Positions 2,595 to 60,245 of a stretch of 64,000 bases of DNA are shown in pieces; position 1 is the stretch's first letter; every line of letters starts with the position of its first letter. This DNA is from Beroe forskalii (Eukaryota; Ctenophora; Nuda; Beroida; Beroidae), in contig WFMF01000050.1 of assembly GCA_011033025.1 (NCBI GenBank), positions 248,001-312,000 on the forward strand, in the 5' to 3' direction. Below the pieces are notes generated by a model. That model searched no databases, had not been told where the DNA came from, and saw only the letters and a list, made by a program, of their open reading frames with translations. Made by a program: the position numbers and the translations under genes.

Positions 2595-2846
2595 CAAATA
2601 TAAATAAAAGTCGACAATGATGTATTGAAGATGTTAAAGAATGATTACAAGAACCGTGGTGATTGAATCCTTCGGCGGAAAAAAACTGACCTGTTCTTGG
2701 TGACGATCGAGATGTTGAGATATTCAGCGCTCGATTCTCAGACACATGATGATTCACGGAGTGCGCGGCTCCGACTAAGTAAAAAATTTAATTTTTACTT
2801 TAAATTGCCGTGGTGGTTGATCCTTCCGGATCAATTGGCTCATGTG
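2595..2846 (+). repeat. Mosaic repeat core module, copy 1
   Basis: This segment recurs at 31790-31945 (minus), 37696-37916 (plus) and 60246-60505 (minus). The shared core runs from the AACAG/GTCAGTTTTT-like edge to AAATTGCCG and is nearly identical in all copies. Inside it, GAAGGATTCAATCACCACGG and GAAGGATCAACCACCACGG (both on the minus strand) form a direct repeat about 150 bp apart. The core has no coding potential I recognise. Confidence 0.75.
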
Positions 2847-2879
2847 AACGTATCCGTAGGAGAAAGGGCAAGTGCACTT

Positions 2880-3885
2880 CTGCAGACAAAAAAGCGCATG
2901 CACTTCCCCAGAATAGAAAAGCGCGCGCACTTCTTCAGAAAAGAAATGCGCGCGCACTTCTTCAGAAAAGAAAAGCGCGCGCACTTCTTCAGAAAAGAAA
3001 AGCGCGCGCACTTCTTCATAGAAGAAAAGCGCGCGCACTTCTTCATAGAAGAAAAGCGCGCGCACTTCTTCATAGAAGAAAAGCGCGCGCACAATTCTTC
3101 ATAGAAGAAAAGCGCGCGCACAATTCTTCATAGAAGAAAAGCGCGCGCACAATTCTTCATAGAAGAAAAGCGCGCGCACAATTCTTTATAGAAGAAAAGC
3201 GCGCGCACTTCTTCATAGAAGAAAAGCGCGCGCACTTCTTCATAGAAGAAAAGCGCGCGCACTCCTTCATAGAAGAAAAGCGCGAACACTTCTTCATAGA
3301 AGAAAAGAGCGCGCACTTCTTCATAGAAGAAAAGCGCGCGCACTTCTTCATAGAAGAAAAGCGCGCGCACGGCGCACTTCTTCATAGAAGAAAAGCGCGC
3401 GCACTTCTTCAGAGAAGAAAAGCGCGCGCGTTTCTTCAGAGAAGAAAAGCACGCGCGTTTCTTCAGAGAAAAAAAGCACGTGCGTTTCTTCAGAGAAAAA
3501 AAGCACGTGCGTTTCTTCAGAGAAGAAAAGCACGCGCGTTTCTTCAGAGAAGAAAAGCACGCGCGTTTCTTCAGAGAAGAAAAGCACGCGTTTCTTCAGA
3601 GAAGAAAAGCACGTGTTCGCATTTCTTCATAGAAGAAAAAGCGCGCACTTCTTCAGAGAAGAAAAAGCACGCGTTTCTTCAAGCACGCGCGTTTCTTCAG
3701 AGAAAACGCGCGTTTCTTCAGAAAAAAAGCGTTTCTTCAGAGAAAAAAGCACGCGCGTTCTTCAGAAGAAGAAAAGCACGCGCGTTTCTTCAGAAGAAAA
3801 GCACGCGCGTTTCTTCAGAGAAGAAAAGCACGTGCGTTTCTTCAGAGAAGAAAAGCACGTGCGTTTCTTGACGAAACGCATGTAA
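2880..3885. repeat. 27-bp minisatellite, GCGCGC-rich, hairpin-forming unit
   Basis: Roughly 35 copies of a 27-bp unit. It has two main variants: CTTCTTCATAGAAGAAAAGC plus GCGCGCA up to about 3400, then TTTCTTCAGAGAAGAAAAGC plus ACGCGCG. Each unit contains the dyad CTTCT..AGAAG followed by alternating GC. The unit length is a multiple of three, so several frames stay open; these are not genes. Confidence 0.95.
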
Positions 3886-15630: not shown

Positions 15631-17606
15631 CACCCTGAACTTACTGCCAAGGGTATTTGTAAACTCTTCTAGCTAAGGTCAGTGTCCATAGTTTCTCGTT
15701 TCAGCACCATAATAGAAATAGTTAACACCACGGTTACCCCATGTATGATTCCAATGGCATACCGTGCCCCTGCCAGCAGCACATAATCAGCAATGAAAAG
15801 TGCCATTAGGGCCCCCAAACTAGCACTTGCTAGCCCTATTGAGCCCATGGTGGCCCTGATAATTGTAGGCATGTACTCAGTCATCAGAAGGTAGGGTGCC
15901 AGGGCAGAGCTGGCTACTACCGGGTAAACCATGAAGAGAAGGCTAACTTGGAGATAGCGGTATTCACACAAGTTGAAGTACAGCGAGCCAAGGACCAGGA
16001 CACCGAAAGAACCTACCACTGTGAAAACCCGCTTCCGTCCGAATCTGTCCAGGAGAATCAATGTGATGACCAAACCGAGGGGTTCAGCAACGTTCACCAC
16101 ACTTACATTTGACAACACTTCCCTGTCATAGCTGCATGTGGAAATAGCCGAGGTGGCTATGTTGTCATCAATGCAGTACCCCTCCTTGAGAATCCTGGGC
16201 ACCGAGTAGCTGTAGAAGAAGTAGTTGAAATGCGAAGTTATTCCTGCCACTATAAGGGCTATTGTGTTGCTTACATTATCAGATGCCCTCAATATTTTTA
16301 CAAAGTATGGAAGGGAGAAGGATTCGGGCTCTTCATTGAAGAAAGCGTTTGTGTCATTTGAGTTTCTTGCTAGTTTCAGTCCTTTATCGTCCTTCCGATT
16401 CATTTTGTAAATACTCTTCACTGTTATCTCCGCTTCACTGACCCTCCCATTATAGAAGTGATAGCGGGGTGACTCCCTTGTGAAAAGTAAAATCAAGATA
16501 CATGGAGAAAAGAAGGCCACGGACACGATGACCAAGCACCGCCAGGACGCCCCCATGATACCCATGGTCAGGTAGGCCATGAAACTGGTCAGCAGGATCC
16601 CAACTCCGTACGCCACGCACGTGCCCGTCACGGCTAGGCCCCGGTGCTTCTTAGGCACTATCTCTCCAGGAAACACGTAAACGTGAGCCAGCCCCAGTCC
16701 CGTGGCTAGCCCCAGGAGGGTGCGAAGCAGCACAAACTCCCAGTACTCCGTGGCTGCAGCACTGAGGCCCCCAAAGACAAGGAGACCTGACGCTGAGATG
16801 AGCATTAGGGGCCTCCTTCCGAACCTGTCACCCAGGGGGGAAGTGAAGAAGGAAGTGAGGGTCTGAGCTGCGTAGGTACTGAGGTTGAGACAGGAGAGTT
16901 GGAAGGGGGAGAGGTCCCACTCGCACCGGAGAGTGGGTCCGATCAGCGAGAGGATGATGAGAACTGATCCTGCAAGGGCGTTCACCAGGAAGCAGCCGGA
17001 CATGTAGAACAAGGTTCCGCAACCGAAACCTGCACCTTCCAAGGCTTCGATGATGTCAAAAGTTGGTGCTGTGTCAGGTTTATGGGTGAGCGTTTGTGGT
17101 AATGGATCTTCTCCTAACTCAGTCTCCATGTAAACGTCCTTGTCTACTGCAGCCTTCTGCGCGTCGTGGTTCATTTTCACCTGCATTGTACATGAAATTG
17201 AACCTAATCGTTATCAGTGTAAATGAACCGTATTGTTATCTGGTTATCATAAAACTGATGATTGACTCCATTGCACAGTGCACAATAGCTTGATATTTTT
17301 CCCTCCCCACTGGCCTTTTTGTCTTACAAAAAGGCATTGAGGAGGGTTGGCAGAGATCGTGGTTTGGGAAGGTGAGAAATAGGATATTATGTGTATAGCA
17401 GGTTCAGGTTTGAAATACAACTACTGTTGTTTCTGAAAAGTTCCCGGAATGCTCCTTTATAATATCAGTCCTTTATAATATGTCCCTCGCTCAGTCCCCA
17501 TGTCACGTAAATCTACAAAATCTGAAAATCACGAACTTCTCAATTCACGGAGCTGTCGGTGCCACATGCTCGAACTCTCCTAAATTATGACAAATTCTGA
17601 ACTTAT
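15631..17606 (-). repeat. Transporter duplication unit 1
   Basis: Direct tandem duplication with period 3269 bp; unit 2 is 18900-20875. Similarity covers the whole coding region, about 40 bp beyond the stop and about 420 bp of 5' flank, then ends abruptly. Confidence 0.9.
15669..17186 (-). CDS. SVOP/SV2-like MFS transporter, copy 1
   Basis: A 505-residue major facilitator protein in one exon, with about 12 membrane segments. The N-terminal EALEGAGFGCG resembles the SVOP/SV2/SLC22-related group. GDRFGRRPLML (loop 2-3) and DRFGRKRVFTV (loop 8-9) are the paired MFS signatures, and RESPRYHFYNGR matches the family's PESPR motif before the central cytosolic loop. The large loop between segments 1 and 2 typical of SLC22 proteins is short, which favours the SVOP side. 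The likely substrate is a small organic solute or ion; it cannot be named. The start ATG at 17186 is the first in frame after an upstream stop; a second Met is four codons later. The neighbour 3.3 kb upstream is a near-identical paralogue. Confidence 0.9.
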   Translation of the reverse strand: MQVKMNHDAQKAAVDKDVYMETELGEDPLPQTLTHKPDTAPTFDIIEALEGAGFGCGTLFYMSGCFLVNALAGSVLIILSLIGPTLRCEWDLSPFQLSCLNLSTYAAQTLTSFFTSPLGDRFGRRPLMLISASGLLVFGGLSAAATEYWEFVLLRTLLGLATGLGLAHVYVFPGEIVPKKHRGLAVTGTCVAYGVGILLTSFMAYLTMGIMGASWRCLVIVSVAFFSPCILILLFTRESPRYHFYNGRVSEAEITVKSIYKMNRKDDKGLKLARNSNDTNAFFNEEPESFSLPYFVKILRASDNVSNTIALIVAGITSHFNYFFYSYSVPRILKEGYCIDDNIATSAISTCSYDREVLSNVSVVNVAEPLGLVITLILLDRFGRKRVFTVVGSFGVLVLGSLYFNLCEYRYLQVSLLFMVYPVVASSALAPYLLMTEYMPTIIRATMGSIGLASASLGALMALFIADYVLLAGARYAIGIIHGVTVVLTISIMVLKRETMDTDLS

Positions 17607-18899: not shown

Positions 18900-20875
18900 C
18901 ACCCTTTACTTACTGCCTAGTGTATTTGTAAACTCTGCTAGCTAAGGTCAGTGTCCATAGTTTCTCGTTTCAGCACCATAATAGAAATAGTGAACACCAC
19001 AGTTACCCCATGTATGATTCCAATGGCATACCGTGCCCCTACCAGCAGCACATAATCAGCTATGAAAAGTGCCGTTAGGGACCCCAAACTGGCACTCGCT
19101 AGCCCTATTGAGCCCATGGTGGCCCTGATAATTGTGGGCATGTACTCAGTCATCAAGAGGTAGGGTGCCAGGGCAGAGCTGGCTACTACCGGGTAAACCA
19201 TGAAGAGAAGGCTAACTTGGAGATAGCGGTATTCACATAAGTTGAAGTACAGCGAGCCAAGGACCAGGACACCGAAAGAACCTACCACTGTGAAAACCCG
19301 CTTCCGTCCGAATCTGTCCAGGAGAATCAATGTGATGACCAAACCGAGGGGTTCAGCAACGTTCACCACACTTACATTTGACAACAAGTCCCTGTCATAG
19401 CTGCACGAGGAGTTAGCCGAGGTGGCTATTTTGTCATCAATGCAGTACCCCTCCTTGAGAATCCTGGGCACCGAATAGCTGTAGAAGAAGTAGTTGAAAT
19501 GCGAAGTTATTCCTGCCACTATCAGGGCTATCGTGTTGCTAACGTTATCAGATGCCCTCAATATTTTTACAAAGTATGGAAGGGAGAAGGATTCGGGTTT
19601 TTCGTTGAAGAAAGCGTTTGTGTCATTTGAGTTTCTTGCTAGTTTCAGTCCTTTATCGTCCTTCCCATTCATTTTGTAGATACTCTTCACCGTTATCTCC
19701 GCTTCACTGACCCTCCCATTGTAGAAGTGATAGCGGGGTGACTCCCTTGTGAAAAGTAAAATCAAGACACACGGAGAAAAGAAGGCCACGGACACGATGA
19801 CCAAGCACCGCCAGGACGCCCCCATGATACCCATGGTCAGGTAGGCCATGAAACTGGTCAGCAGGATCCCAACTCCGTACGCCACGCACGTGCCCGTCAC
19901 GGCTAGGCCCCGGTGCTTCTTAGGCACTATCTCTCCAGGAAACACGTAAACGTGAGCCAGCCCCAGTCCCGTGGCTAGCCCCAGGAGGGTGCGAAGCAGC
20001 ACAAACTCCCAGTACTCCGTGGCTGCCGCACTGAGACCCCCAAAGACAAGGAGACCTGACGCGGAGATGAGCATCAGGGGCCTCCTCCCGAACCTGTCAC
20101 CCAGGGGGGAAGTGAAGAGGGAAGTGAGGGTCTGAGCTGCGTAGGTACTGAGGTTGAGGCACGAGAGTTGGAAGGGGGAGAGGTCCCACTCGCACCGGAC
20201 AGTGGGTCCGATCAGCGAGAGGATGATGAGAACTGATCCTGCTAGCGCGTTCACCAGGAAGCAGCCGGACATGTAGAACAAGGTTCCGCAACCGAAACCT
20301 GCACCTTCCAAGGCTTCGATGATGTCAATAGTTGGTGCTGTGTCAGGTTTTTGGGTGAGCGTTTGTGGTAATGGATCTTCTCCTAACTCAGTCTCCATGT
20401 AAACGTCGTTGTCTACTGCAGCCTTCTGCGCGTCGTGGTTCATTTGCACCTGCATTGTACATGAAATTGAAGCTAATCGTTATCAGTGTAACTGAACCAT
20501 ATTGTTATCTGGTTATCATAAAACTGATGATTGACCCCATTGCACAGTGCACAATAGCTTGATATTTTTCCCTCCCCACTGGCCCTTTTGTCTTACAAAA
20601 AGGCATTGAGGAGGGTTGGCAGAGATCGTGGTTTGGGAAGGTGAGAAATAGGATATTATGTGTATAGCAGGTTCAGGTTTGCAATACAACTACTGTTCTT
20701 TCTGAAAAGTGCCCGGAATGCTCCTTTATAATATCAGTCCTTTATAATATGTCCCTCGCTCAGTCCCCATGTCACGTAAATCTACAAAATCTGAAAATCG
20801 CGAACTTCTCAATTCATGGAGCTGTCGGTGCCACATGATCGAACTCTCCCAGATTATGACAAGTTCTGAACTTAT
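18900..20875 (-). repeat. Transporter duplication unit 2
   Basis: Second copy of the unit described at 15631-17606. Its upstream flank is equally conserved up to GAACTTAT at about 20875, where the two copies diverge at once. Confidence 0.9.
18938..20455 (-). CDS. SVOP/SV2-like MFS transporter, copy 2
   Basis: 505 residues, same length as copy 1. By my alignment 18 positions differ (about 96% identity) and there are no indels. Differences cluster in one extracellular-facing stretch (CIDDKIATSANSSCSYDRDLL against CIDDN..ISTCSYDREVL, near residues 340-360), a place that could affect substrate entry. All MFS signature residues are intact in both copies. The promoter-proximal flank is duplicated too, so both are likely expressed, perhaps together. 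This is a recent duplication with both frames maintained. Substrate unknown. Confidence 0.9.
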   Translation of the reverse strand: MQVQMNHDAQKAAVDNDVYMETELGEDPLPQTLTQKPDTAPTIDIIEALEGAGFGCGTLFYMSGCFLVNALAGSVLIILSLIGPTVRCEWDLSPFQLSCLNLSTYAAQTLTSLFTSPLGDRFGRRPLMLISASGLLVFGGLSAAATEYWEFVLLRTLLGLATGLGLAHVYVFPGEIVPKKHRGLAVTGTCVAYGVGILLTSFMAYLTMGIMGASWRCLVIVSVAFFSPCVLILLFTRESPRYHFYNGRVSEAEITVKSIYKMNGKDDKGLKLARNSNDTNAFFNEKPESFSLPYFVKILRASDNVSNTIALIVAGITSHFNYFFYSYSVPRILKEGYCIDDKIATSANSSCSYDRDLLSNVSVVNVAEPLGLVITLILLDRFGRKRVFTVVGSFGVLVLGSLYFNLCEYRYLQVSLLFMVYPVVASSALAPYLLMTEYMPTIIRATMGSIGLASASLGSLTALFIADYVLLVGARYAIGIIHGVTVVFTISIMVLKRETMDTDLS

Positions 20876-22021: not shown

Positions 22022-22183
22022 CTACACCTGAGCAGCGAGCACGACCACCTCACAGAACTGCAGGAACTCCACCTCTTTGCGGACTGTAACAGAAGCTCCG
22101 AACTCTCCTCCGCAATCCACCACGTACCAAGGCTTATACTCCTGGTAGGTGATGGTGCCGCACACGTGCTCCCCTAGCAACAC
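22022..22183 (-). CDS. FTP gene exon 4: end of domain 6 and stop
   Basis: 162 bp, phase 0. Starts VLLGEHVCGT, carries the closing FTP strand EFLQFCEVVVLAAQV and ends in TAG at 22022-22024. Acceptor CTTGCAG immediately precedes 22183. This closes the sixth domain with no tail, so no GPI or transmembrane anchor is evident. Confidence 0.85.
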   Translation of the reverse strand: MLLGEHVCGTITYQEYKPWYVVDCGGEFGASVTVRKEVEFLQFCEVVVLAAQV

Positions 22184-22270
22184 CTGCAAGGTGGTGAGCG
22201 TTAGGGGGGATCTGTAGGGGTCCTAGCAACACCTGTAGGGGTGGGGGAGGGTTAGGGGGGTTTGTTGGGT
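22173..22270. repeat. Two-copy 49-bp repeat over the exon 4 splice acceptor
   Basis: CCTAGCAACACCTG starts at 22173 and again at 22222, each followed by a G-rich GTTAGGGGGG tract. In sense direction each copy holds an acceptor (CTTGCAG or CTACAG) followed by GTGTTGCTAGG, the first 11 bases of exon 4. Confidence 0.8.
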
Positions 22271-22722
22271 GGTTGAAATTTGGTCAAATCAACGAATGAA
22301 TCGACCAATCCATCAATCTATAAATAAATTATTGATTGATTGATCCATTGATTCAATATTTATTGATTTATTAGTCGCAAGGAGCTGAAAGGGGCTTCTT
22401 AGAACCCGTCAGGTGTGATAGATCGGATATTATATTAAAAAGGAAGAGGAGTTTGCTTTATAATGGCCTTGTGGAAACATTTCGGTAGTTGTTACTTTGG
22501 TTAGAGATGAGTTGCCATGGTAACTGGGTTGTTTTGATTGTCCTGGTGTTGTTTTTGGTGTGTTTTGTGCTTGTCGGTACCAATAATTGTAACAATAAAA
22601 CAGTCAGGTAGGTAGGTTTAAACGTCATGAGACTATAACAAGTAAAAGCCTATTGATCATGCCACAATAGTGTCGTCACAAGCTACAATAACATATTATT
22701 GTCTTGCTACAATGCCACCTAC

Positions 22723-22861
22723 CGTTGCCCCATCAATGTAGCTGGGCATGTTGACATCTAGCCGGGGAAAGATAACAACCTGCCCCACACTCCTACTCTC
22801 AGCTAAGTCAACACTCCACCAATGCATGCCTTGCTGCACTGCCGTGGAGAAACACGATTCT
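22723..22861 (-). CDS. FTP gene exon 3: middle of domain 6
   Basis: 139 bp: one base completing the split lysine codon of exon 2, then 46 codons beginning ESCFSTAVQQGMHWWSVDL and ending YIDGAT. Acceptor CTTCAG is at 22862-22867; donor GTAGGT starts at 22722. The first 14 bases of this exon are also the edge of the 49-bp array in the preceding intron. Confidence 0.85.
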
Positions 22862-23430
22862 CTGAAGTTTTGGGGTTGTTTTAAGCTACCTCAATTAGAA
22901 ACACGATTCTCTGAAGTTTTGGGGTTGTTTTAAGCTACCTCAATAAGAAACACGATTCTCTGAAGTGGTGGGAGTGTTTTAAGCTACCTCAATTAGAAAC
23001 ACGATTCTCTGAAGTGGTGGGGTTGTTAAATGCTGCCTCAATTAGAAACACGATTCTCTGAAGTTTTGGGGTTGTTTTAAGCTACCTCAATTAGAAACAC
23101 GATTCTCTGAAGTTTTGGGGTTGTTAAATGCTGCCTCAATTAGAAACACGATTCTCTGAAGTTTTGGGGTTGTTAAATGCTGCCTCAATTAGAAACACGA
23201 TTCTCTGAAGTTTTGGGGTTGTTTTAAGCTACCTCAATTAGAAACACGATTCTCTGAAGTTTTGGGGTTGTTTTAAGCTACCTCAATTAGAAACACGATT
23301 CTCTGAAGTTTTGGGGTTGTTAAATGCTGCCTCAATTAGAAACACGATTCTCTGAAGTTTGGGGTTGTTTTAAGCTAACTCAATTAGAAACAAGATTCTC
23401 TGATGTTTTGGGGTTGTTTTAAACTATCTA
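22848..23430. repeat. 12-copy 49-bp array over the exon 3 splice acceptor
   Basis: GATTCTCTGAAG recurs at 22856, 22905, 22954, 23003, 23052, 23101, 23150, 23199, 23248, 23297, 23346 and 23394, a near-constant 49-bp period. In sense direction each unit contains CTTCAG then AGAATCGTGTTTCT, the first 14 bases of exon 3. Two unit subtypes alternate (GTTTTAAGCTACC and GTTAAATGCTGCC). The outermost copy has a changed acceptor (ATCAG). Confidence 0.95.
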
Positions 23431-23685
23431 GATAAGTCAATAGCATAGCCACTTCTAATTCTACAAACAACTTGTTTCTAGAAATCTAACAATCTTAATC
23501 TGGTTAAATGGAATCATGATTGCTATTGAATGCACAGATTTGGAGAAAAAGAAATCTAACAATCGTTACTAATACTTAATTTGTGAATTATGAATCCTCT
23601 CAGACTGAGTTGGGTTTTTATAGAAATGGACTGAAAATTTGATTTTAGCATCTAGAATAAATTCAAGATTAAAATAGCGACTTAC

Positions 23686-25910
23686 TTGAAAAAGTCACCC
23701 TCTGTCTCCCCATCAACTGCCTTATCAGGAGTCCCGTCCAAGTAAACACTGGACGAACTAGCCTTCATCCTGTGAGCCAGGTTAGGTCCACTTAGATCCA
23801 CCGCTTCCTCATCCTCAGCCGGGTCGTATTGGTGGTTCACGAACACTTGGAACTCACAGAACACCAAGGCATCGTTCAGCTTTGTCATTCTGAACACCCG
23901 TCCCCAGGCGTTGTAGAGAGGCACTTCGTATCGGTACTTTCCGTCACGGTACGTTAGACTGGCAACCGTCCTGCTGTCCAATGTGATGGTGTTGCCGTGC
24001 ATCCTCTTCATTTCGTTGGTATTGTCTGCTCTGCCTACGATGTCAAGGTAATCCACATAGTACTCCCTTCCTAGATCCACTTCCCACCAGCTGATGGCTT
24101 CCTTGTTAGTGTGGGTGCAGGATTGAGCGTTCCACTTGGCTGTGCTGAGGTGGGTAAACCCGTCCACTGCCCGCTTAGCTTCACCCCCATGGGCAGTGCT
24201 GGACTGGGTTGTATTCTTCCACAGAGCTACGTTCTCCAGACTTGGGATGGTGGACGGTAGCTCCTCTTCCACCAAATCCTCGTTCCTCACCAGAACCTGG
24301 ACTTCACATAACATGAGGTGTAGTTGTGCTCTTTGGACTGTGACGATCTGACCGTGAGCCTCCTGCTCACTCGCGTCTATGACTATAGGGAACCTGGCTT
24401 CGTAAAGCTCCTCACTAACGTATCCCACCATCTGCCTTCCCACATACACCCTCGACCACAGGATGTCTTTCTCTCCACTTGCTGTCCTGCTCCAGATCAG
24501 GACCTTGTCCACTTTGTAAACCTTGCCCAAATCCACCCTAAACTCCGCAGCCCCCAAGTTGTTGGTGTGTCCACAACTCTGTCTGTTCCAGTGAGTGTAC
24601 GTCCACCCGTCCACAACGCGGCTAGCTTCTCCGCCCCATCCCACAGATGTCTGCCACGCCTTCTTCCTGAGTGCCACGTTAGTGTAGTTCCCCAGGATCT
24701 CACCCTCACTGGCGATAGTGAGAGGTTCATCCTCAACCAGAGCCTTATCCACCATCACCTGCACCTCACACAGAACCAGGTACTGATTCTGTGCTTCTAT
24801 TGTTACAGACCTCCCTGCAGACTGATCAGCAGAACACTTCACTATGTCAGGTCCCTCTCCCTTCTTCTTAGCGTTCACAGTCCCGCACCTGTGGTCCCCG
24901 ATCCAGAGCCGAGCGCCTTGAAGTGGAGAGTCCGCGTCGTCCCTGCCCCACACCCTCACATGATCCACCTGGTACACCCTCCCTAGATCCACCTTCCACC
25001 ACTCCAGCCCCTGATTGTAGGTGTGAGAGCAGCTTGCCTGGTGGTAGTTCTGCTTGGTAACTCCATCATTAGCTCTACTTGCTACTCCGCCCCATGGCTC
25101 CGAACTGGCTGTCGCGTTCTTCCCCACAGCCACATTGAAGTACTCGCCCACTGCCTCCCCCAGATGGCTAGTGTCCTCAGTGGGAATCTCCTCATCCGTC
25201 TCCGGCAACTTCTCAGGATCCACCATTACTTGGAGCTCGCAGATGGTTATTGTCGCATCCCAATGCTCGACTCTGACATGTCGACCCGTCAGAAGGTCAG
25301 CATTCCCACCACAGTCGATCTTCACAGCGTTCTTCTTCTTCTCAAACCCTGATATAGTCTGACACGCCACGTTCCCTACTTTAACTGTAGCTCCGTTTAG
25401 CCAGGTTTGATCAGCATCCGTCCTGCCGTAGATCATTATATGATCAATATGGTAGACTCTACCCAGGTCCACTTCCCAGTAAGCCATGGATCGGGAGTTC
25501 CTAGCGTAGGTACAAGTCCTCTTATTCCATTGACCATTAGCAAACCCATCCACCCCCCTGGAAGCAACCCCACCGTGTTGTGTGCTGGACTGCGTGGCAG
25601 GCTTATTAACCGCCACATTGAGCAGACCCTCGTGGTACTCCCCTCGGTGGTGCTCAGGGGTCTGGGTGGGACCCACCTCCAGCTCCACCTGGGACTTCAC
25701 CATAACCTTCACCTCACACAGGGTCAGGCCCTGCTGGAGCACCTCTATCCGGACCTTCCTGCCCACCATGTTCTCACATTCCACCCGCTCCATCTGCTCT
25801 TTTTCATGTCCTTTAGGGTGGCACACTTCACATTACCAACCCACAGCTTAGCTCCTGCTATACGTTCTGAGCAGCAATCCGTCCTGCCGTACACTTCAAT
25901 GTACGATATC
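23686..25910 (-). CDS. FTP gene exon 2: domains 1 (rest) to 6 (start)
   Basis: A 2225-bp exon. It completes domain 1 (IEVYGRTD..AKLWVGNVKC..LTLCEVKVMV), carries domains 2-5 in full (each with N(V)A..K..Q(S)S, GG.ASR.VDG, C.HT.N, W.VDLG..Y.VD, LCE.QV.V) and begins domain 6 (NLAHRMKASSSS..DKAVDGETEGDFFK). Acceptor CAG is at 25911-25913; donor GTAAGT starts at 23685. The frame is lost at the T5 run 25800-25804 (A5 in sense); the exon is exactly one base short of the length the flanking phases require, which fits a homopolymer error or a one-base deletion. Linkers between domains are acidic. Confidence 0.85.
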
Positions 25911-26280
25911 CTGAGGGAATGTCAGTTGTTAGTGGTCCTGCCGTACACTTCAATGTACGCTATCCTGAGGGAATGTCAGTTGTTAGTAGTCCGTCCTGCC
26001 GTACACTTCAATGTACGATATCCTGAGGGAATGTCAGTTGTTAGTAGTCCGTCCTGCCGTACACTTCAATGTACGATATCCTGAGGGAATGTCAGTTGTT
26101 AGTAGTCCCTCCTGCCGTACACTTCAATGTACGATATCCTGAGGGAATGTCAGTTGTTAGTTATTAGTAGTCCCTCCTGCCGTACACTTCAATGTACGAT
26201 ATCCTGAGGGAATGTCAGTTGTTAGTAGTCCCTCCTGCCGTACACTTCAATGTACGATATCCTGAGGGAATGTCAGTTGT
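25878..26280. repeat. Seven-copy 58-bp array over the exon 2 splice acceptor
   Basis: CCTGCCGTACACTTCAATGT starts at 25883, 25937, 25995, 26053, 26111, 26176 and 26234: spacing 54, 58, 58, 58, 65, 58. In sense direction most units hold TACTAAC (branch-point consensus), ATTCCCTCAG (acceptor) and 33 bases identical to the start of exon 2. Confidence 0.95.
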
Positions 26281-26540
26281 GTGAATCAATGTGTTTATAA
26301 CGATGACAAGATTTAAAACTTTAGTCTCATTCTGTCGACATTATTCCTCATAGATGAGTCCGGGTTATTGCATGAGAGTCTAAAAACACAACTAAAGGAA
26401 TTAACTGGTAACAATATTTGGCAGAACAAGCATTAGCTTTTCAAGAGATTCAGTGCTTTGATTGGTTGATTTGAAACTTTACAGAATTGAATTTAGGATG
26501 ACAGGAGAAGGATGGTTCATGAACAGAAATAATATGTATG

Positions 26541-26582
26541 TTTCAAAGAGCATGTTTCAAAGAGCATGTTTCAAAGAGCACT
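26541..26582. repeat. Three-copy 14-bp repeat in intron 1
   Basis: GTTTCAAAGAGCA(T) repeated three times in a row. Confidence 0.85.
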
Positions 26583-26841
26583 ATTGTACGATTACAAATG
26601 CAACAACAAAACATTATCAATCAAAGAATCAATGCAATAAATATCATAAAAACAATATCAACGAATAAGGGCTTAACGATAATCTGCAGGAGCATGCAAA
26701 AGAGGTGAATGGACTTTTTCTCGCCGTGTAAACAAGTAAAACAGAGCCAGAACGGCGAAACGAAACAGTAAATAAGTGCAGAAACTGTGAATGAGAGAAT
26801 GAGAAACCGTTTGCTGAAGAATATTACTCCGAAACCAGTGG

Positions 26842-26909
26842 CACGTGCGCGCGCGCAACACGTGACCTTGATTTGGTACAGTAACAGTGGCACGTGTGCG
26901 AGTCACGTG
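26842..26909. promoter_or_regulatory. Cluster of four CACGTG E-boxes in intron 1
   Basis: CACGTG occurs at 26842, 26859, 26891 and 26904 within 68 bp, in a CpG-rich stretch with (GC)n, about 250 bp inside intron 1 of the FTP gene. CACGTG is the binding site of bHLH-zip factors such as USF, MYC/MAX and MITF. An intronic enhancer or alternative promoter is possible; that is inference. Confidence 0.45.
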
Positions 26910-27152
26910 GGACGGTAATTACATGTTTAGAGAGTTTCTCGCGGGAACGAAACATTTGGTATACATGTTTCTAGTAAGAGTGTGTGATGTTTGAAAGGAT
27001 TACAATACACTGAAACTATCTGATAGACACAGTGAATGTATTTGATAGAGGGATTCTGCCAGTGTGTCTATCGCTCTATTTTTTATCCCCTCCCGCTGGC
27101 TAAATCCTCACGCAATAACCCGGACGAATCTATAAAGTCTCTAAACCCTCAC

Positions 27153-27409
27153 CTGTACACATCCTGCAGGTCTACCTCCCACCACTGCACTCCCTCATTG
27201 TTACTGTGCTGGCAGGAGCCATGGTGCCAGTTCCCTGAGGTCACGCCGTCCACAGCTCGCGAGGACACGCCCCCACTCCCAGTGTTGGACTGGCTGGTGG
27301 GCTTGCCCAGCGCTACGTTGATGAACTGTTCCACTGTCTTCACGCCGTCTTCCTCAGAAAGGACTGTCCTATGCTGCAGCAGCAACAGGAAGGTAGCTAC
27401 TAGTAGCAT
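27153..27409 (-). CDS. FTP gene exon 1: signal peptide and first half of domain 1
   Basis: Starts with ATG at 27409 and a clear signal peptide (MLLVATFLLLLQHRTVLSEE). It continues into NVALGKPTSQSN..GGVSSRAVDG..WWEVDLQDVY, the first half of an FTP domain. The exon ends in TACAG at 27153, followed by donor GTGAGG (27152-27147). The split arginine codon (AG+G) is completed by exon 2, giving VYRISYIEVYGRTD, exactly the family's pattern. No strong TATA box is seen upstream. Confidence 0.9.
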
Positions 27410-31239: not shown

Positions 31240-31715
31240 GTAGGGTAACATCCTACAAGGTTAGGCCGTAAGGGTTAGAATTAAGGTTTTGGTTAGGGCT
31301 ATGATTAGGTTATATTAAGGATACAGAAAAATTGACGTTTAGATCTATGACGTCACCCAGAGCCGTTAATATGGGAGACATACTATGTTACCATTCGCAT
31401 TTTGTGATCAAGAATGCTGTTTGAATGACAGACTGCTTTAATTAAATTACCTTTATTCAATAAGAGCTAATTTTTTAGAGAAAAATTCCTTGAGCTTGGC
31501 TCAAAAATCAACTTTGCCCCACCAATGGCTATTTGTTGTCATTTCGGTACGTCTCCCATATAAACGGGAGCCTTCATTATCTATGACATATGACAATGAC
31601 GTCACTCAGAAAAATATAATTAAGCGCACCTAGCGCTTTAAGGACTAGGGTTAGGGTCAGGATTAGGATCAGGATTTGTTAGGGTTAAGGTAAGGATTAA
31701 GGTTAGGGTTTTGGT
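31240..31715. other. Degenerate TTAGGG-like tracts and unique sequence
   Basis: GGGTTAGAATTAAGGTTTTG and TTAGGGTTAAGGTAAGGATT (31676-31715) resemble decayed TTAGGG repeats, but no run has more than two clean units. The rest is unremarkable. Confidence 0.5.
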
Positions 31716-31719
31716 TATG

Positions 31720-31801
31720 CCCCTCACCCAAGCCCCCGAAGGGGGCGTTAAGGGTGAGGGGTTTCTCCGAGGAGAAGAGAACATGAGCCAATTGATCCGG
31801 A
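31720..31801 (-). repeat. Double-hairpin repeat, arm 1
   Basis: CCCCTCACCC..AGCCCCC..GGGGGC..AGGGTGAGGGG (31720-31761) folds into a long GC stem, followed at once by TTCTCC-GA-GGAGAA (31763-31776). The inverted copy lies at 32718-32793, and together they bracket about 900 bp that includes core module copy 2. Confidence 0.8.
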
Positions 31802-31945
31802 AGGATCAACCACCACGGCAATTTAAAGTAAAAATTAAATTTTTTACTTAGTCGGAGCCGCGCACTCCGTGAATCATCATGTGTCTGAGAATCGAGCGCT
31901 GAATATCTCAACATCTCGATCGTCACCAAGAACAGGTCAGTTTTT
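31790..31945 (-). repeat. Mosaic repeat core module, copy 2
   Basis: Same core as 2595-2846. Beyond GTCAGTTTTT it continues into unrelated sequence (GAAGCAAATGTC), unlike the other three copies, which share a further 90 bp. Confidence 0.8.
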
Positions 31946-32717
31946 GAAGCAAATGTCTGACGCCTCACACAAAACATGCGTTCCGGTCGGCCAAGACTGA
32001 AGACGCGCGCGCAATAATTTAATTGCGCGCGCCCGCTGAAAATTTCATATTTGGAATGAATCCGAAACGCAAATTTTGCTAGTTGCGCAAGTGATGTTGC
32101 AAAAGTGTCCCACTATGTATAGGAACGCATTAAAAACGCAGAAATAAGTTCCAATAAATATAAAACCAGGAAGATAACCATGTCTAAGGCACAAGATGAA
32201 AAGCCCGTCACTGTGTTGGGCTTATTACTAACCACTGAAAAACAAGAGTACTGTTTTAAACTCAAAGACTATGCCAAAAAAGGGATGATAACATCAAGAT
32301 AATCCTTCACACTGAAAGTGTAAAATAGAGAGGGAATTAATGTCCCACCTGATTGAACCATAATCTCAATTTGTACGTAGCTACCGTATCGACTGGTTAT
32401 GCAATAATAAGTGCAACAGTCCTGTCGACTGTTCAGAGTATATGCGAATAGCAGTGTAAACGCACAAAATTCTTGTTTAGACGAAACATGTCAGAGACGC
32501 TTGCATAATGGCATGTCCACTGTCTACGATAATTATCGCAGCTGTTTAATACCTGTATAACCAAAACTTGTACGTAGTCTGTTGAAAATCTGAAGTATAG
32601 CTCCAGGTGAGCTTCCGCTTCCCTTCCACTTTCTTTTCATGAAAACGGGTAACCGGATCCTCTATCATCACATGTTACTGGAAAATAAACAGTAGGTAAT
32701 AGGGAGGAGAGGAGGGA
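31946..32717. other. No recognisable gene
   Basis: Contains the dyad GCGCGCGCAATAATTTAATT continuing to GCGCGCGC (about 32004-32032). Nothing else is identified. Confidence 0.5.
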
Positions 32718-36429: not shown

Positions 36430-36790
36430 CAATAGGTCTGCTGGTCTGTCACATTGCTAAAGCTCTAAAGACCTCAAATGAGATCTTACAGAGTCGACCT
36501 CAATAGGTCTGTCACTCTGACCATTGCTAGACACCATCAAGGGGTCTTACAGAGTCGTCCTCAAAAGGTCTGTCACTCTGTCACATAAACTAGACACCTC
36601 AAAAGGGTCTTTCATAAGAGCCGACCTCAGTAGGTCTGTCACTCTGTCATATGATCACTCTGTCACATACATGACTGACACCTCAAAAGGGTCTATAAGA
36701 GTGAATGATTTCAGTCCTCAATAGGTCTGTCATATGACTAGGCACTTCAAGATGTGCCTGTTATAGACCTTCTGATATTTAATCAGGTCT
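36430..36790. repeat. Array of hairpin-forming about 65-bp units
   Basis: Repeated CAGAGTCGACCTCAATAGGT plus CTGTCACTCTG units. GACCT-caat-AGGTC and CAGAGT..ACTCTG nest into one imperfect stem per unit. Units are separated by GACACC(T)CAAAAGGGTCTT. Confidence 0.75.
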
Positions 36791-39951: not shown

Positions 39952-40918
39952 CTATATGCTAATATTTCTATTGTTTTTCCTTGCCCTGGGCTATAATCTA
40001 AATGCTAATATTTCCTTATTTCTATTGTTTTTCCTTGCCCTGGGCTATATGCTAATATTTCTATTATTTTTCCTTGCCCTGTGCTATATGCTAATATTTC
40101 TATTGTTTTTACTTGCCCTTGGCTATATGCTAATATTTCTATTATTTTTCCTTGCCCTGTGCTATATGCTAATATTTCCATTGTTTTTCCTTGCCCTGAG
40201 CTATATGCTAATATTTCTATTGTTTTTCCTTGCCCTGGGCTATATGCTAATATTTCTATTGTTTTTCCTTGCCCTGGGCTATATGCTAATATTTCTATTG
40301 TTTTTCCTTGCCCTGGGCTATATGCTAATATTTCTATTGTTTTTCCTTGCCCTGGGCTATATGCTAATATTTCTATTGTTTTTCCTTGCCCTGGGCTATA
40401 TGCTAATATTTCTATTGTTTTCCTTGCCCTGTGCTATATGCTAATATTTCTATTGTTTTTCCTTGCCCTGGGCTATATGCTAATATTTCTATTGTTTTTT
40501 CCTTGCCCTGGGCTATATGCTAATATTTCTATTGTTTTTCCTTGCCCTGGGCTATATGCTAATATTTCTATTGTTTTTCCTTGCCCTGGGCTATATGCTA
40601 ATATTTCTATTGTTTTTCCTTGCCCTGGGCTATATGCTAATATTTCTATTGTTCATTCCCTGCCCTGTGCTATATGCTAATATTTCTATTGTTTTTCCTT
40701 GCCCTGGGCTATATGCTAATATTTCTATTGTTTTTCCTTGCCCTGGGCTATATGCTAATATTTCTATTGTTTTTCCTTGCCCTGGGCTATATGCTAATAT
40801 TTCTATTGTTTTTCCTTGCCCTGGGCTATATGCTAATATTTCTATTGTTTTTCCTTGCCCTGGGCTATAATCTAAATGCTAATATTTCCTTATTTCTATT
40901 GTTTTTCCTTGCCCTGTG
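39952..40918 (+). repeat. 39-bp satellite, array 1
   Basis: About 25 copies of CTATATGCTAATATTTCTAT plus TGTTTTTCCTTGCCCTGGG. Both ends of the array carry the same longer variant (CTATAATCTAAATGCTAATA). Unit length is a multiple of three, which creates hydrophobic open frames (MLIFLLFFLALGY) that I do not regard as genes. Confidence 0.97.
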
Positions 40919-42924: not shown

Positions 42925-45900
42925 CACCCTGGGCTATATGCTAATATTTCTATTATTTTTCCTTGCCCTGTGCTATATGCTAATATTTCTATTGTTTTTA
43001 CTTGCCCTTGGCTATATGCTAATATTTCTATTATTTTTCCTTGCCCTGTGCTATATGGTAATATTTCTATTGTTTTTCCTTGCCCTGGACTATATGCTAA
43101 TATTTCTATTGTTTTTTTGCCCTGGGCTATATGCTAATATTTCTATTGTTTTTCCTTGCCCTGGGCTATTTGCTAATATTTCTATTGTTTTTCCCTGCCC
43201 TGTGCTATATGCTAATATTTCTATTGTTTTTCCTTGCCCTGTGCTATATGCTAATATTTCCATTGTTTTTCCTTGCCCTGGGCTATTTGCTAATATTTCT
43301 ATTGCTTTTCCTTGCCCTGGGCTATATGCTAATATTTCTATTGTTTTTCCTTGCCCTGGGCTATATGCTTATATTTCTATTGTTTTTCCTTGCCCTGGGC
43401 TATATGCTAATATTTCTATTGTTTTTCCTTGCCCTGGGCTATATGCTAATATTTCTATTGTTTTTCCTTGCCCTGGGCTATATGCTAATATTTCTATTGT
43501 TTTCCTTGCCCTGGGCTATATGCTAATATTTCTATTGTTTTTCCTTGCCCTGGGCTATATGCTAATATTTCTATTGTTTTTCCTTGCCCTGGGCTATATG
43601 CTAATATTTCTATTGTTTTTCCTTGCCCTGGGCTATATGCTAATATTTCCATTGCTTTTCCTTGCCCTGGGCTATATGCTAATATTTCCATTGTTTTCCC
43701 TTGCCCTGGGCTATATGCTAATATTTCTATTGTTTTTCCTTGCCCTGGGCTATATGCTAATATTTCTATTGTTTTTCCTTGCCCTGGGCTATATGCTAAT
43801 ATTTCTATTGTTTTTCCTTGCCCTGGGCTATATGCTAATATTTCTATTGTTTTTCCTTGCCCTGGGCTATATGCTAATATTTCTATTGTTTTTCCTTGCC
43901 CTGGGCTATATGCTAATATTTCTATTGTTTTTCCTTGCCCTGGGCTATATGCTAATATTTCTATTGTTTTTCCTTGCCCTGGGCTATATGCTAATATTTC
44001 TATTGTTTTTCCTTGCCCTGGGCTATATATGCTAATATTTCTATTGTTTTTCCTTGCCCTGGGCTATATGCTAATATTTCTATTGTTTTTCCTTGCCCTG
44101 GGCTATATGCTAATATTTCTATTGTTTTTCCTTGCCCTGGGCTATATGCTAATATTTCTATTGTTTTTCCTTGCCCTGGGCTATATGCTAATATTTCTAT
44201 TGTTTTTCCTTGCCCTGGGCTATATGCTAATATTTCTATTGTTTTTCCTTGCCCCTGGGCTATATGCTAATATTTCTATTGTTTTTCCTTGCCCTGGGCT
44301 ATATGCTAATATTTCTATTGTTTTTCTTTGCCCTGGGCTATATGCTAATATTTCTATTGTTTTTCCTTGCCCTGGGCTATATGCTAATATTTCTATTGTT
44401 TTTCCTTGCCCTGGGCTATATGCTAATATTTCTATTGTTTTTCCTTGCCCTGGGCTATATGCTAATATTTCTATTGTTTTTCCTTGCCCTGGGCTATATG
44501 CTAATATTTCTATTGTTTTTCCTTGCCCTGGGCTATATGCTAATATTTCTATTGTTTTTCCTTGCCCTGGGCTATATGCTAATATTTCTATTGTTTTTCC
44601 TTGCCCTGGGCTATATATGCTATTTCTATTGTTTTTCCTTGCCCTGCCCTGGGCTATATGCTAATATTTCTATTGTTTTTCCGCCTGCTATAATATTTCT
44701 ATTGTTTTTCCTTGCCCTGGGCTATATGTTAATATTTCTATTTTTTCTTCGCCCTGGGCTATATGCTAATATTTCTATTGTTTTTCCTTGCCCTGGGCTA
44801 TATTCTAATATTTCTATTGTTTTTCCTTGCCATGGGCTATATGCTAATATTTCTATTGTTTTCCTTACCCTGGGCTGGGCTATATGCTAATATTTCTTTT
44901 GTTTTTTTCCTTGCCCTGGGCTATATGCTAATATTTCTATTGTTTTTCCTTGCCCTGGGCTATATGCTAATATTTCTATTGTTTTTCCTTGCCCTGGGCT
45001 ATATGCTAATATTTCTATTGTTTTTCCTTGCCCTGGGCTATATGCTAATATTTCTATTGTTTTTCCTTGCCCTGGGCTATATGCTAATATTTCTATTGTT
45101 TTTCCTTTTCCTGGGCTATATGCTAATATTTCTATTGTTTTTCCTTGCCCTGGGCTATATGCTAATATTTCTATTGTTTTTCCTTGCCCTGGGCTATATG
45201 CTAATATTTCTATTGTTTTTCCTTGCCCTGGGCTATGCTAATATTTCTATTGTTTTTCCTTGCCCTGGGCTATATGCTAATATTTCTATTGTTTTTCCTT
45301 GCCCTGGGCTATATGCTAATATTTCTATTGTTTTTCCTTGCCCTGGGCTATATGCTAATATTTCTATTGTTTTTCCTTGCCCTGGGCTATATGCTAATAT
45401 TTCTATTGTTTTTCCTTGCCCTGGGCTATATGCTAATATTTCTATTGTTTTTCCTTGCCCTGGGCTATATGCTAATATTTCTATTGTTTTTCCTTGCCCT
45501 GGGCTATATGCTAATATTTCTATTGTTTTTCCTTGCCTGGGCTATATTTCTATTGTTTTTGTTTTTCCTTGCCCTGGGCTATATGCTAATATTTCTATTG
45601 TTTTTCCTTGCCCTGGGCTATATGCTAATATTTCTATTGTTTTTCCTTGCCCTGGGCTATATGCTAATATTTCTATTGTTTTTCCTTGCCCTGGGCTATA
45701 TGCTAATATTTCTAATATTTTCCTTGCCTATTGTTTTTTTTTGTTTTTCCTTGCCCTGGCTATAATGCTTATATTTTTTTTTTTTTCCTTGCCCTGGGCT
45801 ATATGCTAATATTTCTATTGTTTTTCCTTGCCCTGGGCTATATGCTAATATTTCTATTGTTTTTCCTTGCCCTGGGCTATATGCTAATATTTCTATTGTT

Positions 45901-48900: not shown

Positions 48901-50730
48901 GGGCTATATGCTAATATTTCTATTGTTTTTCCTTGCCCTGGGCTATATGCTAATATTTCTATTGTTTTTCTTTGCCCTGGGCTATATGCTAATATTTCTA
49001 TTGTTTTTCCTTGCCCTGGGCTATATGCTAATATTTCTATTGTTTTTCCTTGCCCTGGGCTATATGCTAATATTTCTATTGTTTTTCCTTGCCCTGGGCT
49101 ATATGCTAATATTTCTATTGTTTTTTCTTTGCCCTGGGCTATATGCTAATATTTCTATTGTTTTCCTTGCCCTGGGCTATATGCTAATATTTCTATTGTT
49201 TTTCCTTGCCTGGGCTATATGCTAATATTTCTATTGTTTTTCCTTGCCCTGGGCTATATGCTAATATTTCTATTGTTTTTCCTTGCCCTGGGCTATATGC
49301 TAATATTTCTATTGTTTTTCCTTGCCCTGGGCTATATGCTAATATTTCTATTGTTTTTCCTTGCCCTGGGCTATATGCTAATATTTCTATTGTTTTTCCT
49401 TGCCCTGGGCTATATGCTAATATTTCTATTGTTTTTCCTTGCCCTGGGCTATATGCTAATATTTCTATTGTTTTTCCTTGCCCTGGGCTATATGCTAATA
49501 TTTCTATTGTTTTTCCTTGCCCTGGGCTATATGCTAATATTTCTATTGTTTTTCCTTGCCCTGGGCTATATGCTAATATTTCTATTGTTTTTCCTTGCCC
49601 TGGGCTATATGCTAATATTTCTATTGTTTTTTTTCTATTGTTTTTCCATATATGACTATATGTATTATTTCTATTGTTTTTCTTTGCCCTGGGCTATATG
49701 CTAATATTTCTATTGTTTTTCCTTGCCCTGGGCTATACCCTAATATTTCTATTGTTTTTCATAGCCCTGGGGTATATGTTAATATTTATATTTTTTTTTC
49801 CTTGCCCTGGGCTATATGCTAATATTTCTATTGTTTTTCCTTGCCCTGCTATATGCTAATATTTCTATTGTTTTTACTTGCTCCGGGCTATATGCTAATA
49901 TTTCTATTGTTTTTTTCCTTGCCCTGGGCTATATGCTAATATTTCTATTGTTTTTCCTTGCCCTGGGCTATATGCTAATATTTCTATTGTTTTTCCTTGC
50001 CCTGGGCTATATGCTAATATTTCTATTGTTTTTCCTTGCCCTGGGCTATATGCTAATATTTCTATTGTTTTTCCTTGCCCTGGGCTATATGCTAATATTT
50101 CTATTGTTTTCCTTGCCCTGGGCTATATGCTAATATTTCTATTGTTTTTCCTTGCCCTGGGCTATATGCTAATATTTCTATTGTTTTTCCTTGCCCTGGG
50201 CTATATGCTAATATTTCTATTGTTTTTCCTTGGCCTGGGCTATATGCTAATATTTCTATTGTTTTTCCTTGCCCTGGGCTATATGCTAATATTTCTATTG
50301 TTCATTACCTGCCCTGTGCTATATGCTGATATTTCTATTGTTTTTCCTTGCCCTGGGCTATATGCTAATATTTCTATTGTTTTCCTTGCCCTGGGCTATA
50401 TGCTAATATTTCTATTGTTTTTCCTTGCCCTGGGCTATATGCTAATATTTCTATTGTTTTTACTTGCCCTGGGCTATATGCTAATATTTCTATTGTTTTT
50501 CCTTGCCCTGGGCCATATGCTAATATTTCTATTGTTTTTCCTTGCCCTGTGCTATATGCTAATATTTCTATTGTTTTTGCTTGCCCTGGGCTATATGCTA
50601 ATATTTCTATTGTTTTTCCTTGCCCTGGGCTATATGCTAATATTTCTATTGTTTTTTTCTTGCCCTGGGCTATATGCTAATATTTCCATTGTTTTTCCTT
50701 ATTTCCATTGTTTTTTTTTGCACTGGGCTA
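42925..50730 (+). repeat. 39-bp satellite, array 2
   Basis: About 200 copies of the same 39-bp unit in one orientation, with scattered substitutions and homopolymer indels. The first units repeat the variant order found near the start of array 1 (..TATTATTTTTCCTTGCCCTG, TTTTTACTTGCCCTTGGC..). The last unit ends GCACTGGGCTA at 50730, where copia sequence begins. Confidence 0.98.
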
Positions 50731-59579: not shown

Positions 59580-60182
59580 TTGAGCTCACAATTTTTAAGC
59601 CCATGAGATCAGAGCCAAAATCCCCGTCGATCAAATGTTAAAATATCTGTCGAAAGAATGTTCATTACTCATTAGCGCAAATTTTAACAAACATTCAATC
59701 AAAAACAAATTAAAAGCTTGAGTGCGCACTGTAATTTGCGCGTTCTTTCGATGGATGCGTCTTTTGTCGATCTTTGTGCACACGTGAGCCCGCATAAGTG
59801 CAGTGCATAAGCGCGCCGCACAGTTCACCTAACCTTAACCAGGTGCTTACGCGCGCGTGTAGCCTACGGCCAAGTTCTGAGAAGGAATGATGCAGAATAG
59901 GGCTTAACGCGCGCAGCATGCACCTCTTCCCTACAGGCAAGTGCGCCGCGCAACGCGAACAGGAATAAACTTGTACTTACGTTGTAGGACCTATTTTGCG
60001 CGCGCAAGCGCGCGTGTTCAGAAAACCCGAAGAAAAGGCGCGCACGCACGCGCGAACAAACAGGGACGCATAGCATGTGGCAAGGATACACGTGTTTGGC
60101 ATGTGATGGCAAGCTAGTTGAGGGCAAATTTGAAATGCATTAATGCAATAGTCATTTTGGTTCTTTGCATATTGTTTCCTAA
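59580..60182. other. CG-repeat-rich sequence, no recognisable gene
   Basis: From 59790 to 60060 it is dense in GCGCGC-type runs (for example TTACGCGCGCGTGTAG and TGCGCGCGCAAGCGCGCG). Nothing coding is recognised. Confidence 0.5.
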
Positions 60183-60244: not shown

Positions 60245-60245
60245 A

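Follow-up and report, generated by a model that had tools for sequence, protein, structure and literature searches.

Every intron of an FTP-domain gene of Beroe forskalii was found to end, at its 3' side, in a tandem array that copies the intron's own acceptor, the exon-proximal copy lying exactly on that acceptor. The gene (four exons, three introns) is on the minus strand of the 64,000-nt stretch of contig WFMF01000050.1 that was analysed, here called the window, and the coordinates are given in Table 1. These arrays are probably 'mirages' at three introns that were likely gained, in which a 3' splice-site module would have been duplicated in place, expanded and tolerated, as it would also have been in other genes.

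Table 1. Positions in the window of the exons and introns of the FTP-domain gene, of the three arrays and of the repeated element.
Feature	Position	Strand	Description
exon 1	27153..27409	-	signal-peptide-like start and beginning of FTP domain 1; donor CAG|GTGAGG
intron 1	25911..27152	-	1242 bp; present neither in paralog c420 nor in the uninterrupted ORF of ortholog P0028
repeated element with inverted ends in intron 1	26350..27136	-	about 787 bp, starts about 16 nt past the donor
array 1	25878..26280	-	7 acceptor copies; 58-bp unit of CTAAC (6/7 copies), ACTGACATTCCCTCAG and the first 33 nt of exon 2
exon 2	23686..25910	-	FTP domains; one-base frame change close to the 5' end
intron 2	22862..23685	-	824 bp; donor is the exact end of the ORF of ortholog P0028
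array 2	22848..23426	-	12 acceptor copies; 49-bp unit of TTAAAAC or TTTAAC, CAACCCCAAAACTTCAG and the first 14 nt of exon 3
exon 3	22723..22861	-	gene model
intron 3	22184..22722	-	539 bp; gene model
array 3	about 22173..22260	-	2 acceptor copies; period 49, of CCCCCCTAAC, a pyrimidine-rich stretch, CAG and the first 11 nt of exon 4
exon 4	22022..22183	-	stop codon TAG at 22024-22022

The unit of each array represents a 3' splice-site module, composed of a pyrimidine-containing stretch, an AG and the head of the exon, often with a branch-point-like motif. The exonic part of the units comprised 33, 14 and 11 identical bases in arrays 1, 2 and 3 respectively, and the edges of all three arrays lie slightly inside the respective exon. 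Within this gene boundary-spanning arrays were present at acceptors only, the donors being outside the arrays. TRF reported array 1 as 58 bp x 6.9 (93% match) and array 2 as 49 bp x 11.8 (92% match), both over the intervals in Table 1. Array 3 was absent from the TRF list and scored too low to count as spanning by the standard measure; at period 49, 11+3 of its bases agree exactly, and its flanks were alike by eye save for a small indel. An earlier note on this DNA had described an array at the 3' end of each intron (7 x 58, 12 x 49 and 2 x 49 bp) with units holding an AG and the first 33, 14 or 11 exon bases, and all of this was borne out, the copy counts of 7, 12 and 2 including the real acceptor, being made with a motif that itself contains AG and being subject to the errors that can affect assembled arrays. 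In a genome search at the DNA level, which skips very common words, the unit of array 1 matched its own site and contig C369 only, and the unit of array 2 had no match beyond its own site. A dispersed mobile family was thus unsupported as the source of these two units, no scattered copies being found beyond one related contig.

The joined exons of the gene model read into FTP sequence, and exon 1 gave a match to F5_F8_type_C_2 slightly below the Pfam cut-off. The start and stop codons were identified by eye and the acceptors were chosen from reading frame and homology only; the acceptor used is presumably the last, exon-proximal copy of each array. The frame change in exon 2 may be an assembly error or decay, and the gene might therefore be a pseudogene, where any array would be tolerated.

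The sister paralog, c420, is intronless, and the joined exons aligned to it without a gap at all three junctions; upstream of junction 3, at distances of 18 and 27 nt, lie two gaps of one base each that compensate for one another. The ORF of the ortholog P0028 runs on across the site of intron 1 and stops at the donor of intron 2, and the tree obtained was ((window,P0028),(c420,P0029)), with starred support. Divergence between the window gene and c420 amounted to a dN of 0.26, with no usable dS. By parsimony, and with the database ORFs P0028 and P0029 treated as genomic, these data suggest, as the likeliest history, a gain of all three introns after the split from c420; repeated loss, or retroposition of intronless copies, is a possible alternative.

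Introners are transposon-derived introns, and intron 1 resembles them in containing a high-copy element with inverted ends, for which 40 genome places were scored (its own included), the others being 87-93% identical. A transposable element might accordingly have supplied the introns together with their splice sites. However, the element (query 15-801, window 27136-26350) includes neither splice site of intron 1, the donor (27152) lying just outside it and the acceptor (25911) more than 400 nt away. Contig C369 is haplotype-like, sharing 92% identity with the window across the 1.5 kb that surround exon 1. It carries at least three unit copies of array 1, the contig start falling inside the array, and has about 155 bp between the array and the donor-side match, too little for the full element; the same distance in the window is about 840 bp. 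A transposon origin of intron 1 was rejected on these two grounds. Introns 2 and 3 had no other match in the genome, and an introner-like origin of the introns is largely refuted and hardly credible.

Rogers-type gain, in which an intron arises when exonic AG/GT is duplicated in tandem, has reportedly been the subject of a study in potato. For Drosophila such gain is treated in part of PMC2891723, and a section of PMC3087553 proposes that introns with mirages in amphioxus globin genes originated from tandemly duplicated exon segments. The arrays could likewise have made the introns of the FTP-domain gene, the stretch between duplicated exon segments becoming intronic, and it fits that the introns look young, that they adjoin duplicated exon sequence and that each holds exon copies. 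However, the five intron segments outside the arrays showed no similarity to their own exons above shuffles, all scoring under the 95% shuffle level, and an exonic origin of the intron bodies was rejected. The intronic part of the arrays was not exon-like by eye and, unlike the Rogers-type gain described there, the gene repeats a 3' module only, with donors outside the arrays. This origin is regarded as quite improbable. Tandem dual-specific splice sites, as outlined in part of PMC10809524 for human UBC and VCX3A, also place splice signals in tandem repeats; there a single site is both donor and acceptor, and the intron is a multiple of the unit in length. The copies found here differ in being acceptor-type and inside the intron; with intron lengths of 1242, 824 and 539 set against units of 58, 49 and 49, only the equality 539 = 11 x 49 recalls that system, yet the donor of this intron is in no unit.

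The preferred reading concerns the 3' module. Once the three introns had been gained, after the split from intronless c420, a short segment with the module and the first exon bases would have been tandemly duplicated in situ at each intron, and the arrays may have expanded via slippage or unequal exchange. Upstream copies would turn into intron while the exon-proximal copy would preserve the original acceptor-exon junction, and for this reason the arrays would be tolerated rather than selected. The same duplication process would act at acceptors and donors of other genes in a minisatellite-rich genome. Acceptors may carry arrays more often than donors, possibly because a duplication is better tolerated upstream of an AG than just past a donor.

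Recurrence was assessed in control genes. With the FTP-domain gene left out, tandem copies of splice sites that touch or span the boundary were detected at 12/121 acceptors and at 3/124 donors (p 0.017). The difference is fragile, and part of the control sites are paralogous and not independent. The p value was 0.029 without one hand-corrected acceptor and 0.047 at 10/119, and by gene region the comparison gave 10/39 acceptors against 3/39 donors (p 0.065). Block-shuffled control sequence yielded a mean of 0.05 matches per 121 acceptors and 0.0 for donors. All 15 matches were in myosin and CCT genes (7 and 5 respectively for acceptors), and no array match was found in 13 kinesin introns or at the borders of single-FTP exons (12 acceptors, 13 donors); recurrence is therefore uneven across genes. 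A 69-bp unit present 32 times in a myosin gene (contig C29) consists of about the first 45 exon nt and CCTAACCCACCTCTCAG. Two CCT paralogs on one contig (C558), with sampled exons 95-100% and introns 86-90% identical (gaps aside), differ in carrying 4 and 1 copies of an acceptor module in intron 4 and 3 and 1 copies of a donor module in intron 1. At L026, an FTP-exon locus, a candidate array was dropped, as by eye it sits roughly 150 bp beyond the donor.

The control set was built by removing 3 of 67 modelled introns (model score of 3 or less) and two rows, an overlapping HMM row from C225, taken out before modelling, and a row from C826, taken out later. Introns were modelled where the HMM exons on either side were at most 22 profile positions apart; several known myosin and CCT places were omitted. 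Unpaired exon edges joined the set at a later stage and gave single-site picks for 32 acceptors and 34 donors. The kinesin controls are three regions chosen for compactness from the kinesin genes found (C736, C580 and C1014), locus L019 was assigned no acceptor, and the acceptor in C580 was shifted by hand to the exon-proximal copy. Some single-site picks (C1 and C826) and some kinesin models (C736) are uncertain entries.

Strictly exon-spanning copies were equally frequent at control acceptors (3/121) and donors (3/124). In the first sample of 64 introns, at a score of at least 16, arrays were scored at 4/64 acceptors, 3/64 donors, 30/384 random positions of the same loci and 1/192 shuffles, and a stricter exon-matching criterion left 2 acceptors and 2 donors. 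At score 16 arrays were about as common at intron-interior positions (41/512) as at acceptors. Since exon-spanning copies are equal and intron interiors hold arrays about as often, the case for an acceptor-specific process is weakened; such duplication was set aside as unsupported, the first 64 introns showing no enrichment and the excess in the enlarged set not extending to exon-spanning copies. The mechanism suggested in the earlier note, repeated duplication of acceptor regions, thus reappears in other genes but affects donors too, and its proposed comparison of arrays at 3' and 5' sites came out, in the sampled genes, in favour of acceptors for touching or spanning copies and level for strictly exon-spanning ones.

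The same figures bear on pure chance. TRF arrays with a period of at least 10 make up 22% of the window and 4-12% of four other sampled locus groups, and with 4-22% of sampled DNA in arrays the gene may be an extreme draw chosen afterwards, an account that overlaps the neutral form of the preferred one. The array frequency in intron interiors and the parity of exon-spanning copies are what chance would give. However, the edges of the arrays lie slightly inside every exon, and at control rates three of three introns would have a probability of about 1e-3 for copies that touch or span and of 1.5e-5 for those that span (a criterion that array 3 itself would fail), both figures being post hoc, as the arrays were the reason for choosing the gene. 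Within that limit, and with the low count in shuffled sequence, the view that three of three argues against chance was upheld, and chance by itself is considered rather doubtful.

The real acceptors of introns 1 and 2 were at percentiles 0.30 and 0.34 among 71 reference acceptors, around the lower third, and that of intron 3 was stronger (0.73). Upstream copies in the arrays had predicted scores similar to the real acceptors, and all 6, 11 and 1 of them in arrays 1, 2 and 3 would, if spliced, lead to an early stop and a truncated protein. The branch motif YTRAY preceded 39/77 acceptors and 143/385 random intron positions; as it is only mildly commoner at acceptors, candidate branch points are predictions at the level of the motif. 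The acceptor scores and the early stops could reflect selection for stacked 3' splice sites, extra modules raising the splicing efficiency of young introns with weak acceptors or poison acceptors giving regulated unproductive splicing and decay. The excess of touching or spanning arrays at acceptors agrees with this, as does the report, in part of PMC2809761, that splice sites are weaker, and premature stops more frequent, in new Drosophila introns. However, the strong acceptor of intron 3 is duplicated as well and intron interiors hold arrays as often. Intact AGs are moreover expected without selection, because tandem turnover homogenises copies, and the counting motif includes the AG. Selection of this kind appears unlikely, and there is a similarly small chance that amplification of the complete 3' module (branch point, pyrimidine tract, AG and exon head) is a recurrent, acceptor-biased ctenophore process that helps new introns to establish through stacked weak or NMD-linked poison acceptors.

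The splice-boundary minisatellites of amphioxus, which the earlier note had mentioned, do exist. The passages of PMC3087553 and PMC3902484 that concern these mirages describe minisatellite-like repeats spanning intron-exon boundaries in Adh3, the globins BflGb6 and BflGb9, troponin C and PGBD5, with units of 10-160 bp, many with AG or GT, at 5' and 3' boundaries, and with regular splicing undisturbed; RT-PCR data exist for them. The ctenophore units match that description in spanning the boundary, in carrying splice signals (7, 12 and 2 AG copies, which score like reference acceptors), in an overlapping range of sizes and in affecting both boundaries in the genome, as the exon-spanning copies indicate. 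Compared with the amphioxus cases in those passages, the present ones belong to another phylum, occupy three of three introns in one gene, have young-looking host introns, often hold a branch-point-like motif in acceptor units and come with a sampled frequency (12/121 acceptors, 3/124 donors), and they are described here from sequence.

Mirages have been known but rarely reported, and were previously described as an oddity of amphioxus genes. Their presence in unrelated genes of a ctenophore, and at introns of seemingly recent gain, suggests that they are a general by-product of minisatellite-rich genomes, countable in any long-read assembly. The arrays also raise a question about splicing, as they offer the spliceosome a choice of up to twelve 3' splice sites that resemble each other and lie close together. 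A comparison of intron age with acceptor copy number across ctenophore genomes can now test how tandem duplication is linked to intron gain; if module amplification helps new introns to establish, arrays would be far commoner in new introns than in old ones.

The FTP-domain gene, which carries several FTP-type (F5_F8_type_C_2) domains, lies on the minus strand of the window, in an assembly of 216 Mb and 1134 contigs. Exon borders were set by reading frame, and the joined exons generated an unbroken frame from the long exon-2 ORF onward, reaching the end of an FTP domain. A frame change of one base, located by eye close to the 5' end of exon 2 (25832–25910), may be an assembly error or decay, and the gene may be decaying. 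A nearby lipoxygenase ORF matched annotated Mnemiopsis leidyi proteins at 69% at best and one database protein at 81%, which places the organism among the ctenophores. Two near-identical sugar-transporter-like (MFS) ORFs of 513 aa lie in tandem on the minus strand (15669–17210 and 18938–20479).

Exons, acceptor arrays and the intron 1 element of the FTP-domain gene (window positions)
Feature	Position	Strand	Detail
Exon 1	27409-27153	minus	border set by reading frame
Exon 2	25910-23686	minus	border set by reading frame
Exon 3	22861-22723	minus	border set by reading frame
Exon 4	22183-22022	minus	border set by reading frame
Array 1	intron 1 acceptor	minus	58 bp x 7 copies, 33 exon bases
Array 2	intron 2 acceptor	minus	49 bp x 12 copies, 14 exon bases
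Array 3	intron 3 acceptor	minus	period 49, 2 copies, 11 exon bases
Repeated element, ~787 bp, inverted ends	26350-27136 (intron 1)		starts ~16 nt past donor

The copy numbers, unit sizes and exon-base counts that the earlier note had claimed for the three arrays were correct on recheck. In each intron the acceptor is the array member closest to the exon, and the units combine a stretch containing pyrimidines with AG and the head of the exon. Array 3 is weak, being missing from the TRF list and below the standard spanning score; its duplication appears credible because of an 11+3-base exact match with similar flanks. No duplication was scored at any of the three donors. Arrays at three of three introns would be rare at control rates (probability 1e-3 to 1.5e-5), although it was this pattern that drew attention to the gene.

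Acceptors were scored with a matrix built from 71 control acceptors. Array copies scored 8.3–9.6 against 8.4 for the real site in intron 1, 7.6–12.3 against 9.3 in intron 2, and 14.7 against 12.7 in intron 3. Splicing to any upstream copy (6, 11 and 1 in introns 1–3 respectively) is predicted to meet a stop after 5–32 codons. CTAAC occurs 19 nt upstream of the exon in 6/7 copies of array 1 and at 18–20 nt in both copies of array 3, while array 2 has TTAAC at 18 nt in only 4/12 copies, the copy presumed to be used being without it. This motif is a putative branch point only, since it is only mildly enriched before control acceptors (39/77 vs 143/385 random intron positions).

The element in intron 1 is high-copy, with 40 places scored among 179 candidates, window copy included, and 11 other copies whose ends were compared share sequence beyond the right end of the window copy. 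C369, a haplotype-like contig, is 92% identical to the window over exon 1 and the upstream region, and at least three array-1 units stand at its extreme end. The distance from array to donor-side match is ~155 bp on C369 vs ~840 bp in the window, which would leave no room for a full element on C369. If C369 is the other haplotype, array 1 would predate the insertion; alternatively, C369 may have arisen by recent duplication or may have lost the element. Genome searches with the bodies of introns 2 and 3 returned self-matches only, and an exon-duplication model of intron gain was unsupported for the intron bodies of this gene.

Further repeats were seen in the window. A Copia-like (RVT_2) retroelement region with ORFs at 50641–55361 has a 39-bp minisatellite of ~200 copies (42927–50700 and 40017–40869) immediately upstream. 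Tandem arrays of 61 bp at 36471–36646 and 61552–61716, 25 kb apart and with units that look reverse-complementary, are perhaps the ends of a large element. The translated segment KTDLFLVTIEMLRYS..., present at 2667–3104, 31669–32112 and 60114–60422, is a dispersed repeat.

The closest paralog in the genome, c420, is a single unbroken ORF of 944 aa, and its alignment with the joined exons runs directly through all three junctions, with two one-base gaps that offset each other 18 and 27 nt upstream of site 3. The tree topology was ((window,P0028),(c420,P0029)), with support of 99/98, 100/99 and 100/100, P0028 and P0029 being database ORFs. P0028 is 74% identical to exon 2; its ORF stays open across the intron-1 site and terminates where reading into the intron-2 donor would bring a stop codon, as expected of an unspliced genomic ORF. 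Taken by parsimony, the c420 alignment, the tree and the P0028 ORF ends suggest that intron 2 was gained before the split from the species of P0028, intron 1 after it, and that intron 3 is younger than the c420 split, a reading subject to the uncertain source, genomic or transcript, of P0028 and P0029. Instead of intron gain in the window gene, it is possible that the c420, P0028 and P0029 copies lost introns or arose by retroposition.

Control introns were modelled from Pfam exon matches in myosin, CCT/TCP1 and kinesin genes; 64 of the first 67 models were kept, and later additions gave 77. Single-FTP exons contributed another 12 acceptors and 13 donors, and unpaired exon edges a further 32 acceptors and 34 donors; the window gene is left out of all counts. 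An excess of arrays at 3' over 5' splice sites was present in these genes for tandem copies touching or spanning the site (acceptors 12/121 vs donors 3/124, Fisher p 0.0165; local block-shuffle means 0.05 and 0.0) and absent for copies truly reaching into the exon (3/121 and 3/124). The 12 acceptor hits came from myosin (7) and CCT (5) genes, so acceptor duplication extends beyond the FTP gene; none was found in 13 kinesin introns or the single-FTP exons. The excess is fragile: p was 0.029 without one hand-corrected site (11/121), 0.047 at 10/119, 0.065 by gene region (10/39 vs 3/39) and 0.17 for modelled introns and FTP exons alone (6/89 vs 2/90).

Among the first 64 introns, arrays occupied 41/512 (copy upstream) and 44/512 (copy downstream) interior positions, a rate like that at acceptors (4/64), compared with 0/256 and 1/256 positions in exon interiors. 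On the acceptor side of a 69-intron profile, occupancy fell from 7/69 at 20 nt before the junction to 5/69 on it, 3/69 at 10 nt into the exon and 0/69 at 40 nt; on the donor side it stood at 2/69 both at +20 and on the junction, 1/69 at 10 nt into the exon and 0/69 at both 20 and 40 nt. The plain reading is that introns are minisatellite-rich and exons free of them, and that the acceptor side allows arrays up to or slightly into the exon.

The myosin array on contig C29 is far larger than the window-gene case, with ~32 copies of a 69-bp unit, each containing the first ~45 exon bases and CCTAACCCACCTCTCAG. Another myosin array (C225) has 8 units of 34 bp with an 11-base exon match including one mismatch. 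Two inverted CCT paralogs on C558 (L067 and L068) are 95–100% identical in sampled exons and 86–90% in introns, gaps aside; the first has four acceptor modules in intron 4 vs one in the second, and the second has three donor modules in intron 1 vs one in the first. Whichever state is ancestral, module copy number has changed since these paralogs split, and their differing counts make them a good pair for testing splicing. Kinesin exon pieces (profile ~221–264 and 263–302) recur several times within 4 kb at C291:171201–174881, a tandem exon duplication.

The amphioxus splice-boundary minisatellites mentioned in the earlier note do exist: PMC3087553 describes them as mirages, with haplotypes differing in length, splicing undisturbed as judged by RT-PCR and a proposed part in intron gain, and PMC3902484 mentions further amphioxus cases. 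Among the matches listed in open-licence full texts the term mirages referred to amphioxus repeats only. No ctenophore report of such arrays appeared among those listed, a weak absence given the open-licence scope; passages of two ctenophore genome papers did not contain 'tandem repeat'. The FTP-gene arrays are filed as a member of the mirage kind in a new phylum because no mirage-defining feature failed among those checked here. The arrays are real and of a kind already known, and other genes of this genome, beyond the one that the earlier note describes, have them too; their most interesting aspect is the meeting of young-looking introns and acceptor arrays in one gene.
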